Origin: Betaproteobacteria bacterium SG8_39
Lineage (GTDB): Bacteria > Pseudomonadota > Gammaproteobacteria > Burkholderiales > SG8-39
DNA: 35,269 nucleotides
NCBI GenBank assembly: GCA_001303445.1
Contig: LJTQ01000004.1
Span: forward strand, 1-35,269
Direction: 5' to 3'
Part shown: positions 8,946 to 25,159 of the stretch, one piece after another
How positions within the stretch are numbered: position 1 is the first letter of the stretch
Layout of the letters: every line of letters starts with the position of its first letter
Program-made: the position numbers and the translations under genes
Notes under the pieces: generated by a model
Told to the model about the DNA's origin: nothing
The model's database searches: none
What the model saw: the letters and a program-made list of their open reading frames with translations, nothing else

Positions 8946-9374
8946 TTAAATTTCGAGAGCTTCGGGGCGCTGCGCGCTGTGCGGGTGCCCTTCGCCAGCG
9001 TAAACCTTCAGCTTCTTGAGCATCGCATTGCCGAGCGGCCCCTTGGGCAACATGCCTTTGACCGCTTTCTGCAGCACCCGATCGGGATGCTTCGCATGCA
9101 TGACCGCAAAGGTCGTCTCGCGAATGCCGCCCGGATAACCGGTGTGCCGGTAGTACTTTTTCTGCTGTGCCTTTTTGCCCGTCACGCGCAGCTTGTCGGC
9201 ATTGACGACGACGATATAGTCGCCCGTGTCCACATGCGGCGTGTATTCCGGACGATGCTTGCCGCGCAGGCGCTGCGCGATGCGCGTCGCGAGGCGACCC
9301 AGCACTTTGTTCTGGGCGTCGACCAGGTACCAGCCGTGCTGGACTTCGGCGGGTTTCGCGCAATACGTCTTCAT
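8946..9374 (-). CDS. rplM: 50S ribosomal protein L13
   Basis: 142-residue large-subunit assembly protein. Typical motifs include [46 protein letters not shown] and [22 protein letters not shown]. The start is set at ATG 9374 ([20 protein letters not shown]), the usual N terminus. An in-frame TTG at 9395 would add seven residues and is less likely, as it lies close to the predicted transcript start. It forms the usual rplM-rpsI operon, with its own promoter at 9414-9443. Confidence 0.97.
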
Positions 9375-9413
9375 GGCGTCTTTCGTGGCGCTCAAGGTGC
9401 GGAAAAGAGCGAG

Positions 9414-9443
9414 ATTTTATGGGACCTTGGGGGTGGCCGTCAA
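9414..9443 (-). promoter_or_regulatory. Sigma70 promoter of rplM-rpsI
   Basis: On the minus strand, TTGACG (9443-9438), an 18-base spacer, and TAAAAT (9419-9414); 5/6 matches to both consensus boxes. Predicted start about 9407, 33 bases before the L13 ATG. It is downstream of the terminator hairpin at 9471-9501, so that terminator belongs to a different, upstream transcript. Confidence 0.7.
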
Positions 9444-9470
9444 AGCCTGCTTTGCACGCCGCCAGGGACG

Positions 9471-9501
9471 CAAAAAAAGCGCAGCCACGATGGGCTGCGC
9501 T
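9471..9501 (-). terminator. Rho-independent terminator of the candidate small RNA
   Basis: Nine-base-pair stem (9478-9486 with 9493-9501, AGCGCAGCC and GGCTGCGCT, six-base loop), followed on the minus strand by seven T residues (complement of 9472-9478). No protein gene on the minus strand ends here, since the neighbours diverge. It therefore closes a transcript that begins within the intergenic region. Confidence 0.85.
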
Positions 9502-9625
9502 GAATCCACCAAAGGAGGAGGGTGGAGGAGACATACTCTCGGTACTTCGCAGCACCTTGAGTCAGGCCTATCTTGCCGCACGATTGCTGCATCGCAAAAT
9601 CATATTACGAATGTCTGAATAAATT
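9472..9625 (-). ncRNA. Candidate intergenic small RNA with CUCCUCC anti-Shine-Dalgarno loop
   Basis: Predicted transcript of about 150 bases. Promoter: TTCAAA (9661-9656), 18-base spacer, CATAAT (9637-9632) on the minus strand, giving a start near 9625. TATAAA at 9630-9625 is an alternative -10. Stems read in the RNA: GCGAU/AUCGU (9595-9580); GGUGCU/AGUACC closed by the GNRA tetraloop GCGA (9556-9541); GAGA/UCUC (9540-9528); UCCACC/GGUGGA with loop CUCCUCCUUU (9526-9505); then the terminator. CUCCUCC occurs twice, once in the loop and once just 5' of it. It could pair with ribosome-binding sites, as CU-rich loops do in Neisseria NmsR/RcoF and alphaproteobacterial cuckoo-type sRNAs. No homolog is recognised, no coding frame of merit is seen, and the transcript is inferred. 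Confidence 0.6.
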
Positions 9626-9774
9626 TTATAGATTATGGATATATCGTCGTAACACTTTGAACATAATCATATAAATATGAAAATGAGAGGTCGGACCAAT
9701 TCCTGTTTAGGCAAACAGAAGTTTTTGTTTTCAATAACATTTTGCAACGCAGCATCAAGAAAGGGGGCTCACCG
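9580..9774. other. AT-rich half of the rplM-osmC intergenic region
   Basis: The 400 bases from 9375 to 9774 lack a protein gene. The left part holds the rplM promoter and the candidate sRNA. From about 9590 to 9745 the sequence turns strongly AT-rich, unlike the rest of the window, and holds promoter-like boxes on both strands. On the plus strand, TTGAAC (9657-9662) and TATAAA (9670-9675) are promoter-like boxes but are not properly spaced from each other. A weak plus-strand hairpin, CTGTTT/AAACAG (9703-9708 with 9713-9718), followed by GTTTTTGTTTT, resembles a terminator or leader attenuator in front of the osmC-like gene. Nothing else is seen. Confidence 0.5.
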
Positions 9775-10194
9775 ATGAACTGCACCGTGCGCTGGAGCGG
9801 CGCAGGAATGACCTTCCTCGCCGAGACCGGCAGCAATCACGTCCTGGCAATGGACGGGGCGCCCGAGGGCGGCGGGCGTAACCTCGCGCCGCGGCCCATG
9901 GAAGTGGTTCTCGCCGGCACCGGCGGCTGCACCGCCTATGACGTGGTCGTCATCCTGAAGAAAAGCGGACAGCAGGTCAGCGGCTGCGACCTGCAGCTCG
10001 AGGCCGAGCGTGCCGAGACCGACCCCAAGGTCTTCACGCGCATCCACATGCATTTCACCTTGCGCGGCAAGGCGCTCAAAAAGAACCTCGTCGAGCACGC
10101 GATCCGGCTCTCGCACGAGAAGTACTGCTCGGCCTCGGCCATGCTCGGCAAGACCGCCGAGATGACGACGGACTTCGAGCTCGTCGAGGACTAG
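9775..10194 (+). CDS. OsmC/Ohr-family protein (YhfA-like)
   Basis: 139-residue cytoplasmic protein of the OsmC superfamily, many of which reduce organic hydroperoxides with two cysteines. Both are present: C52 in GTGGCTAYDVV and C118 in SHEKYCSASAML. Overall pattern (RPMEVVLAGTGGC, HMHFTLRG, LSHEKYCS) is closest to the YhfA branch, whose physiological substrate is not established, so peroxidase activity is an inference. The start is ATG 9775 with GAAAGGGGG about eight bases upstream. A longer frame from a TTG at 9742 is rejected because it would include the ribosome site. Monocistronic; converges with the glycosyltransferase gene. Confidence 0.9.
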   Translation: MNCTVRWSGAGMTFLAETGSNHVLAMDGAPEGGGRNLAPRPMEVVLAGTGGCTAYDVVVILKKSGQQVSGCDLQLEAERAETDPKVFTRIHMHFTLRGKALKKNLVEHAIRLSHEKYCSASAMLGKTAEMTTDFELVED

Positions 10195-12021: not shown

Positions 12022-12684
12022 TCAGATTCGGTGCGCGAGCGTCGTCATCACCCGGGCCGCCACGCGCATCACGCGCTTTACCGGCGCCGGCATCTCCGCC
12101 GCCCCCAGCGCAACCGCGCTGCGCCGGTGCCGGGCTTCGTCGGTGCGCATCTGTGCAACGATGGCCCGCGAGCGCGCATCGGCTTCGGGCAGCGACTCGA
12201 GGTGGCCGCCGAGGTGCTCTTCGACCTGCGCCTCCGTCTCGGCGAGAAACGCCAGGTTCCAGCGGTCGCCGAGCAGCCCAGCACCGATGCCCATGGCGAG
12301 CGCACCGGCATACCACAGGGGGTTGAGCAGGCTCAGGCGCCCGCCGAGCTCGTGCACGCGCTCAGCGCTCCAGGCCAGGTGATCCTCCTCCTCGAGCGCC
12401 GCCTGCTCGAGCGCGGCCCGGTTCGACGCATCGCGCGCAGTGAGCGACTGGCCCTGATAGAGCGCCTGGGCGCAGACCTCGCCGACGTGGTTCACGCGCA
12501 TCAGCGCCGCGGCATGCGCGCGCTGCGCCTCGCTCAGCTCGGTTTCCGCGACGCCCTCGGCCGGAGAACTCCGGGCAGCGCGATGCACGCCCGCGACGGC
12601 GCGCAGCGCGCGGTCGAACTCATTGACCGCGCGATCGACGCAGTCCAGCGAGGGATAAGGCGGGCGCGCCGCGCGTGTTTCCAT
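12022..12684 (-). CDS. coq7: 2-polyprenyl-3-methyl-6-methoxy-1,4-benzoquinone monooxygenase
   Basis: Di-iron hydroxylase for the C6 hydroxylation of the ubiquinone ring, membrane-associated. 220 residues from ATG 12684 ([18 protein letters not shown]). Carboxylate and histidine ligands of the ferritin-like fold are all identifiable: E69 in [11 protein letters not shown]99 and H102 in EEEDHL, E151, and E183 and H186 in TDEARH. A hydrophobic segment ([20 protein letters not shown], 121-140) is the usual interfacial helix. A longer frame begins at 12723, but its extra 13 codons cover a TACACT promoter-like box, so the shorter form is chosen. Heads a likely operon with two glycosyltransferase genes. 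Confidence 0.95.
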
Positions 12685-12692
12685 GACCTGCG

Positions 12693-12698
12693 AGTGTA
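12693..12698 (-). promoter_or_regulatory. Candidate extended -10 element of the coq7 operon
   Basis: On the minus strand, TGCTACACT ends at 12693, eight bases before the coq7 ATG. Transcription would then start almost at the initiation codon, giving a leaderless or near-leaderless message. The -35 region (CTGAAT, spacer 16) is poor. Offered mainly because the same box type recurs before other genes here. Confidence 0.3.
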
Positions 12699-12750
12699 GC
12701 AAACGCCCTCGCCGATTCAGCACACGAAGCGCGCAGCGTCATCGCAGGGC

Positions 12751-12826: not shown

Positions 12827-14020
12827 TTAGAAGTTATGCGTGACGGTGACCGCAATCTGCTCCGGATCCTGCCCTTGGGCAACCGAGGCGTCGGTGCTGC
12901 CGAGGCCGCCCGCGCTGGTGAACAGGTTGTAGTTCGCGTTCGTGTTGTTCTTGATCTTGGCGTAGCTGAGCGACAGCTTGGTACGCTTGGACATGCTGTA
13001 GGCGTAACCGATGGCCCACATCTTCGCCTTGCTGTCGCACTGCGAGTTGGTGATGACGCCGTTGTTGCACGCCATGCCGTTCTCGAAGACCGAACCCTTG
13101 TCGCGCTTCGCTTCGCTGTAGTGGCCAAACACGCTGTGCTTGCCCCAGTCGTAGCGAATCGGGAGCGACCAGGCGTCACGCTTGGCGAACTTGGAGTCGA
13201 TGGCCATGGCCGACAACTGGCCACTCTTGTCCTTCCACTCCGAACGGTCCCAGACGAGGCCGATGCGCAGGCCGCCCCACTGGTAGTGGCCGTTCACGCG
13301 ATGGCTGCTGCCCTCGACCGACGCTGCCACCGTGCCATAGGCGGTGTTGGTGAACGCGCCACCGTCGCCCACGCCCTGGTAGTAGCTGTAGCCGATGCCC
13401 CAGTTCTTCGCGTTGTACTGCGGCGCGATGTTCCAGCCGTTACCGCGGCTCGACGCGCTGCCGATGTCGTTTTCGGCCGCGCCGTAGGGGTTGGTGCTGT
13501 AGGCCGCAACCACCGTGAAGCCGTTCCAGTTCGGCGAAGCCCAACGGATCGTGTTCGGCGTCCGCGTCGCGTTCGCCACTGCAAACCCGCCGCCGGCGGA
13601 GTAGGCGATGATCGAGGTGTTCGTCATCTTCAGCGAACCACCGCGCGAATACGACTGGTCTTCCGTGTAGACGTAGTGCAGGTCATGACGGCCAATCGTG
13701 AGTTCGCCCCACGACTTGCTGCGCAGACCAACCCAGTTCGCGCCGCTCGTGCCATCCGAGCCCGAGTCCAGCGCAATACGCCAGTCGATCTGGCCAACCG
13801 CCTGCAGGCCGCCGCCCAGGTCCTCGACCACGCGGAAGTAAATCCGCGAGGACTCGTCCTGAACCCGGTCTTCCCGCGAGCGGTTCGTTTTGCCCTTCAC
13901 GTTGACGCTGGCGTAGCTCAGCTTGAAGAAGCCGGTGATCGTCACGCTCGAAGCTGCGAGCGCGGCACCCGGAACAGCGAGGGCACCCGCGACGGCCACG
14001 GCTAGAAGTTTCTTTTGCAT
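12827..14020 (-). CDS. Gram-negative general porin (trimeric 16-stranded type)
   Basis: 397-residue outer-membrane channel. Signal peptide MQKKLLAVAVAGALAVPGAALA with cleavage after residue 22. The mature protein starts ASSVTITGFFKLSYASV, the typical first strand of betaproteobacterial porins, and ends VTVTHNF, with the terminal Phe used by the BAM machine. The middle shows RVVEDLGGGLQAVGQIDWRI and NWVGLRSKSWGELTIGRHD, conserved in this family. Start ATG 14020 has GGGAG eight bases upstream. An in-frame ATG at 14035 would spoil the signal peptide. Two extracellular-type Cys (in ACNNGVITNSQCDS) may form a loop disulfide. Monocistronic with long leader and strong terminator. Confidence 0.95.
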   Translation of the reverse strand: MQKKLLAVAVAGALAVPGAALAASSVTITGFFKLSYASVNVKGKTNRSREDRVQDESSRIYFRVVEDLGGGLQAVGQIDWRIALDSGSDGTSGANWVGLRSKSWGELTIGRHDLHYVYTEDQSYSRGGSLKMTNTSIIAYSAGGGFAVANATRTPNTIRWASPNWNGFTVVAAYSTNPYGAAENDIGSASSRGNGWNIAPQYNAKNWGIGYSYYQGVGDGGAFTNTAYGTVAASVEGSSHRVNGHYQWGGLRIGLVWDRSEWKDKSGQLSAMAIDSKFAKRDAWSLPIRYDWGKHSVFGHYSEAKRDKGSVFENGMACNNGVITNSQCDSKAKMWAIGYAYSMSKRTKLSLSYAKIKNNTNANYNLFTSAGGLGSTDASVAQGQDPEQIAVTVTHNF

Positions 14021-25082: not shown

Positions 25083-25159
25083 GGCGAATTAGCTCAGCTG
25101 GTTAGAGCAGCGGAATCATAATCCGTGGGTCCGGGGTTCGAGTCCCTGATTCGCCACCA
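25083..25159 (+). tRNA. tRNA-Met(CAT), elongator type, CCA encoded
   Basis: 77 bases. Acceptor stem GGCGAAT/ATTCGCC (25083-25089 with 25149-25155), A73 and encoded CCA. D arm GCTC/GAGC, anticodon stem GCGGA/TCCGT with loop ATCATAA giving CAT, variable GGGTC region, and T arm CGGGG/CCCTG around TTCGAGT. The paired first base (G1-C72) excludes an initiator. A lysidine-modified Ile2 tRNA would also read CAT, but the body resembles betaproteobacterial elongator tRNA-Met. Confidence 0.9.

Follow-up and report, generated by a model that had tools for sequence, protein, structure and literature searches.

An RF02278-family small RNA gene beside rplM in Betaproteobacteria bacterium SG8_39, with relatives outside its order

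A compact RNA gene between rplM and an osmC-like gene

What lies between rplM and the divergent OsmC-like gene of Betaproteobacteria bacterium SG8_39: a leader of the ribosomal protein gene, or an RNA with a role of its own? The 35,269-nt stretch of DNA analysed here (the window) carries rplM, the gene for ribosomal protein L13 (Pfam PF00572, 1.8e-49), at 8946–9374 on the minus strand and the OsmC-like gene (PF02566, 4.9e-16, scanned from 9778) at 9775–10194 on the plus strand, with a compact RNA gene on the minus strand between them. An earlier note on this DNA had proposed a small-RNA gene with anti-Shine-Dalgarno loops resembling NmsR/RcoF, a proposal supported by an Rfam match, the predicted fold and a match to the NmsRb model.

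Several parts described in that note could be confirmed on the minus strand. A 5' hairpin capped by GCGA (GGUGCU-GCGA-AGUACC, 9556–9541) is predicted, and its counterpart in a relative of the same genus (locus L047), GAUGCC-UCUC-GGCAUC, preserves the pairing through base changes. The motif CUCCUCC is indeed duplicated, at 9530–9524 and 9520–9514 (ten bases from start to start), and CTCCTCC-N3-CTCCTCC occurs once in the window compared to a mean of 0.005 in mononucleotide shuffles. The first copy (pairing site 1) is, judging from the sequence and the predicted fold, unpaired on its 5' side, and it is constant in relatives, most of which were chosen by the very core that contains it. The predicted hairpin UCCACC-CUCCUCCUUU-GGUGGA (9526–9505), its stem joining 9526–9521 with 9510–9505, presents pairing site 2 in its loop. 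This loop contains CCUCCUUU, as does the 3' end of 16S rRNA. A hairpin with a 9-bp stem and a 6-nt loop (9501–9478) then runs into U7 (9478–9472), forming an intrinsic terminator (9501–9472) that is the sole terminator-like site detected in 9370–9780 (shuffle mean 0.5). The folding energy lies well below that of dinucleotide shuffles, with z values of −4.7 for 98 nt and −5.6 for the 63-nt core.

The separate rplM promoter postulated by the earlier note also stood: the promoter-like site TTGACG-18-TAAAAT (9443–9414, minus strand) lies beyond the end of the terminator at 9472, and both its hexamers are preserved in L047, where the spacer is 17. An L13 leader would be expected inside the rplM transcript, whereas the terminator here would appear to precede the start of that transcript, and no ribosomal-leader family reached the Rfam threshold across the window. 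As for the other neighbours, the OsmC-like gene is close to the sRNA in many betaproteobacterial loci, and coq7 (12022–12723, minus strand; PF03232, 5.7e-44) is a neighbour common to many relatives and to S17 of Bordetella. The reading frame at 12827–14020 (minus strand) has a porin-like N-terminus, as judged by eye, and GGAGAC before its start pairs with GUCUCC of the sRNA.

The RNA belongs to the RF02278 family

Two Rfam matches reached the gathering threshold in the whole window, one being a tRNA gene (25083–25156, plus strand, Rfam covariance model) and the other RF02278 (Betaproteobacteria toxic small RNA), which aligns to 9533–9471 on the minus strand over model positions 1–64 of 64 with 71.3 bits and E 1.2e-12, the gathering cut-off being 50 bits. 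The earlier note had not recognised the family, which is a known one. Kimelman 2012 is reportedly its source. The two hairpins, the CU-rich loop and the U-run terminator of RF02278 are present in the predicted structure, and the matched core (9471–9533) is the equivalent of the processed 'double-hairpin' form. On sequence grounds, the RNA is the rplM-locus copy of the described RF02278/NcS27/S17 family, and hence one more member of it; the assembly, at 84% completeness, yielded a single copy. A match to GcvB (RF00022; 16.6 bits, E 0.19) was attributed to chance.

Published members of RF02278 include NcS27 of Burkholderia (PMC5688073) and S17 of Bordetella (PMC11722255); these and the other papers are cited here for individual passages. 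NcS27 is 92 nt long and has a processed short form (PMC5688073; PMC4603805). The window RNA resembles NcS27 and the other double-hairpin RNAs of Burkholderia cenocepacia in matching the whole model and in its two hairpins, CU-rich sites and terminator, and, like NcS27, it is divergent from its right-hand neighbour, here osmC (PMC4603805). It differs in that one copy was found in its assembly as opposed to four members in B. cenocepacia (PMC5688073), and in that the left-hand neighbour listed for NcS27, BCAL3348a, faces NcS27 (PMC4603805), unlike rplM at the window sRNA. We infer that NcS27 is located in the rplM-osmC region. With S17 of Bordetella pertussis the window RNA shares an RF02278-like core and the vicinity of coq7, which adjoins S17, whereas the ~190-nt long form, S17L, is a feature of S17 (PMC11722255). 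In the Alcaligenaceae loci retrieved, coq7 and osmC are near but a search of the same stretches showed no rplM, in contrast to the window sRNA, which sits beside rplM.

The likeness extends to NmsRA/NmsRB of Neisseria (RF02877; NgncR_162/163; RcoF), for which pairing with ribosome-binding sites and repression have been reported or predicted (PMC5362039): the three-hairpin layout, CUCCUC plus the loop UCUCCUUU, and a length of ~90 nt recur. The NmsRs are, however, paired siblings with an AU-rich stem, and the RF02877 (NmsRb) match at the window sRNA (34.2 bits; genome-wide E 0.0018) is below the gathering cut-off of 52. The NmsRb layout of 5' hairpin, CU-rich linker, CU-rich loop and terminator is present in the window RNA, and the RF02877 and RF02278 models each found one copy in the 84%-complete assembly, at the same place, with no paired siblings. 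Alphaproteobacterial CCUCCUCCC-type sRNAs likewise have CU-rich loops able to cover ribosome-binding sites.

Relatives within and outside the order

In the window's family, RF02278 matched 54 of 80 genomes, 47 of them over the cut-off, and left 26 unmatched; in its order it matched 188 of 300 genomes (114 over the cut-off). Among 114 genomes of the class, 29 were matched, and the two over the cut-off were the window's genome and one other of the same order; since relatives outside the order scored below the cut-off in this class sample, annotation at the Rfam cut-off would miss them. In the class loci outside the order with RF02278 hits, rplM adjoins the hit in 21 of 28, and the core is near-identical in most. 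A search of named genomes with an exact-core pattern gave at least 119 stretches, and the matches listed include Cupriavidus, Bordetella, Ralstonia and Thiobacillus, and also Thiocapsa, Thiothrix, Thioalkalivibrio, Sedimenticola, Halochromatium and Arenicella. Within 700 nt downstream and on the same strand, rplM was present for 51 among the 119 stretches listed, some of which end too early to show it. Records of Thiobacillus and Hydrogenophilales combine the gamma-type stem CCAUC with the beta-type long loop, as descent would predict. One record titled as a Klebsiella pneumoniae MAG (L205) has a betaproteobacterial-type coq7-osmC-sRNA-rplM locus and is probably mislabelled.

In a joint MAFFT alignment of beta and gamma cores, the loop difference of 3 nt fell into the 5' arm and the stem came out misaligned; a new model, R1, and the pair counts were therefore built on 31 short-loop sequences, picked by the exact core pattern with nearness to rplM playing no part in the choice. 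Thirty of the 31 are not titled or placed as betaproteobacterial (the remaining one, L175, is titled Gallionellaceae), and ten come from genomes surveyed again with R1. The constancy of hairpin 1 in this set is no evidence, because the set was picked by the exact core pattern. The terminator stem covaries, with 98.5% of cells paired and 32 cells changed on both sides versus 7.8 in shuffles.

R1 finds the window sRNA, which was outside the training set, with 52.8 bits (E 2.7e-9). It matches 113 of 303 genomes of the class and finds nothing in the other 190; three of the 303 belong to the window's order, as read from a kinship-ordered listing, so that 111 of 300 are matched outside the order. 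In a phylum-wide sample whose share outside the class is unstated, four of 150 genomes were matched, all of the window's class. The best 115 of 139 R1 hits come from 103 genomes, and 72 of these hits precede rplM on its own strand by no more than 900 nt. The 72 belong to 71 genomes, the window's among them, and the other 32 genomes are without a hit beside rplM; five of the 43 hits not beside rplM have less than 600 nt of sequence left downstream. The cores of R1-found hits vary somewhat more than the pattern-picked ones.

A second recurrent home was observed in the short-loop set: the sRNA stands beside an opposite-strand queA-type gene in 12 of 27 loci without close rplM (L090, L128, L132, L141, L145, L155, L172, L192, L195, L197, L201 and L204), with a tgt-type gene on its other side in seven of the 12. 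These loci are mostly from Sedimenticola, Thiodiazotropha and Thiohalocapsa, one protein per cluster having been identified by Pfam. Tandem sRNA copies occur in two gammaproteobacterial genomes, three within ~280 nt in L235 and two in L262. Upstream of the short-loop cores (e.g. L003, L014, L087) there is a conserved TTGACA-17-GAWAAT promoter with ATATTA before the −10; TTGAC[AGT] is present in 51 of 60 upstream stretches (5.3 in shuffles) and a TATTAGA-like box in 30 of 60 (0.4 in shuffles). We read the TTGACA-17-GAWAAT element, from its hexamers and spacing, as a putative ordinary strong sigma-70 promoter and prefer this to the idea of a sulfide-sensor site.

The Neisseria type connects to both models. 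In each of five genomes belonging to a single family within the order, the NmsRb model gave two strong matches (77–107 bits), from which these genomes appear to be Neisseria-like. R1 matches ten of these ten NmsR copies (31–38 bits) in the same places as NmsRb, and RF02278 eight of the ten at E up to 0.01 (32–36 bits, all under its cut-off). The copies have a 5' hairpin, CUCCUC, the loop UCUCCUUU and a terminator, as in the window. A sixth genome, L359, has one weak NmsRb match, and at that place neither RF02278 nor R1 matched.

The start of the transcript

Of 102 loci with a beta-type core, 76 carry the motif TTGCnnYGCA[ACG][ACT]A within the 150 nt that precede this core (mononucleotide-shuffled mean 0.07); some genomes are present twice, from two sources, and merging the duplicates gives 70 of 96 distinct stretches. 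The motif is found in 20 of 28 loci of the window's family (shuffled mean 0.01) and in one of 62 short-loop loci (0.02). In the window the motif, TTGCGATGCAGCA (9597–9585), overlaps a probable promoter at 9597–9570 on the minus strand, composed of TTGCGA (9597–9592), a 16-nt spacer and CAAGAT (9575–9570). CAAGAT has just three of six −10 consensus bases, its L047 counterpart four. When the most favourable of three spacers (16–18 nt) after TTGCnn is taken at each of the 20 family loci, the −10-like hexamer has three to five of the six. Judging from the position of the conserved motif, the RNA would start near 9563 and be ~91 nt long (9563–9472), and the NmsRb alignment, which covers 9563–9473, and the length of NcS27 point to the same likely full transcript.

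The earlier note had instead started an RNA of about 154 nt at TTCAAA-18-CATAAT (9661–9632, minus strand). This site exists, agrees with the consensus at nine of 12 positions, and could be a second start; it is one of two promoter-like sites found versus 0.6 in shuffles, and S17, with its ~190-nt form, offers a comparable case (PMC11722255). In L047, the single same-genus relative aligned, a TATAAT in AT-rich sequence lies a few bases from the aligned −10, but ATCAGT stands opposite the −35 TTCAAA, which is thus not kept, whereas the inner block TTGCGAyGCAGCAATCGT (GATTTTGCGAyGCAGCAATCGT in its longer extent) is preserved better than the upstream site. The folding z of the longer RNA, taken as 148 nt without its last six bases, is −3.8 versus −4.7 for 98 nt. 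We regard the long transcript as unlikely and its promoter as doubtful as an RNA start; neither that promoter nor the ~154-nt length is supported, a verdict less firm than the one against an unrecognised family, and the 5' end in the earlier reading was probably misplaced.

A second copy of the TTGCnnYGCAvCA motif, TTGCAACGCAGCA (9742–9754, plus strand), lies 20 nt before the ATG of the OsmC-like gene, and the occurrence of one motif before both this gene and the sRNA (9585–9597, minus strand) suggests a shared regulator. The genome has 43 matches to the motif, compared to 12 for a reversed control. PhaR is one conceivable candidate for the factor that binds it; no PHA gene was seen by eye at 10 of the 43 matches, and the paper passages on PhaR give no binding site.

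Mode of action and predicted targets

With its family membership, predicted structure, conservation, promoter motif and gene order established here, we consider it highly probable that this is a stand-alone RNA of the RF02278/NcS27/S17 family acting in trans on ribosome-binding sites. It might instead be a cis element of rplM, either a leader bound by L13 or an attenuator that controls rplM through its terminator. In favour of this, 71 of 103 genomes (best 115 of 139 hits) have the element on the rplM strand no more than 900 nt ahead of the gene, a constancy greater than an sRNA without such linkage would lead one to expect. Yet rplM has its own promoter-like site downstream of the terminator in the window, the Alcaligenaceae copies adjoin coq7 in loci without rplM, and copies of the Sedimenticola/Thiohalocapsa type stand beside queA and tgt genes; four members exist in B. 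cenocepacia (PMC5688073) and four in Herbaspirillum, and S17 acts in trans (PMC11722255). All this leaves a cis role very improbable.

Another thinkable role is that of a general translation brake, sequestering Shine-Dalgarno sites broadly with no defined target set. The loop carries CCUCCUUU, as does 16S rRNA, and the pairing core is near-constant across beta and gamma lineages, most sequences having been picked by that core. Overexpressed NcS27 slows growth, its CU-rich region being predicted to lie over ribosome-binding sites (PMC5688073), but an influence of NcS27 on growth is confined to certain substrates (PMC10987360), and S17 alters a limited list of genes and has little effect on the growth of E. 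coli, exponential growth being unimpaired (PMC11722255). 'Toxic' is thus not a general property, and a general brake seems improbable.

For the preferred trans-acting RNA, transcription, processing, pairing, repression and a physiological role may be envisaged from the relatives. The short form of S17 stems from RNase E-dependent processing and represses a sigma-54 activator gene, as followed by a lacZ reporter (PMC11722255). By analogy, a stand-alone RNA of ~91 nt would probably be cut to the 63-nt core, and the unpaired 5' CUCCUCC and the CUCCUCCUUU loop would serve as mimics of the 16S rRNA anti-Shine-Dalgarno end, both CU-rich stretches pairing in trans with the purine-rich ribosome-binding sites that other messages carry, where, we propose, ribosomes could then not start. 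The targets would probably be solute-binding proteins and enzymes of carbon and amino-acid metabolism, so that the RNA may slow uptake and metabolism under restricted growth. Hfq was not found in the 84%-complete assembly.

Start sites complementary to pairing site 1 (AGGAGACA before ATG) have nine matches in the genome and those complementary to site 2 (AAGGAGGA before ATG) 21, and these 30 matches yielded 29 proteins of at least 60 aa for a Pfam scan. Six of the 29 are solute-binding proteins (DctP, TctC, SBP_bac_5, NMT1, NMT1_3, Peripla_BP_6), in agreement with the transporters among the reported targets of S17 (PMC11722255) and NcS27 (PMC10987360). A control with shorter complementarity, AAGGAGW, gave none among 24 proteins, these being what remained from 29 loci of 72 matches once three carrying AGGAGACA and two whose frames were short or repeated had been set aside. 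The one-sided Fisher p of 0.021 is indicative and lends modest support, because the comparison is small, the control covers 29 of 72 matches and the class was chosen after the target list had been seen, although published lists name transporters. Whole-RNA duplex energies were dropped as uninformative, the program ignoring the sRNA's own structure. The sites that the earlier note had named as possible partners, AGGAGG at a trpG-like frame (18142–17573, minus strand) and GGAGGA before the frame 1935–1150 (minus strand), do exist, although six bases make weak evidence of a target.

Family history and significance

The R1 matches outside the order, the rplM linkage and the ten of ten NmsR copies matched make RF02278 look like one branch of an old and often rplM-linked family. 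We lean towards the view that a single ancient family of anti-Shine-Dalgarno mimics unites RF02278, NmsR and the gammaproteobacterial RNAs, that it predates the split of Beta- and other Gammaproteobacteria, and that its ancestral home was upstream of rplM. Against a single fixed home stand the 32 of 103 genomes without an rplM-adjacent R1 hit (among the best 115 of 139) and the 190 of 303 class genomes unmatched. The family itself has already been described; new here are its range beyond Betaproteobacteria and how often it stands upstream of rplM. No earlier report of the rplM link or of gammaproteobacterial members was found in the open-access literature searched, most subscription journals being outside the scope of the search. 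Relatives missed at the Rfam cut-off include, for example, those of Thiocapsa, Thiothrix, Thioalkalivibrio and Sedimenticola. An sRNA conserved over such a span and frequently retained at one position would offer a direct test of the co-evolution of sRNAs and their targets, and, if the proposed history is true, linkage to the gene of a ribosomal protein would couple target repression to ribosome supply.
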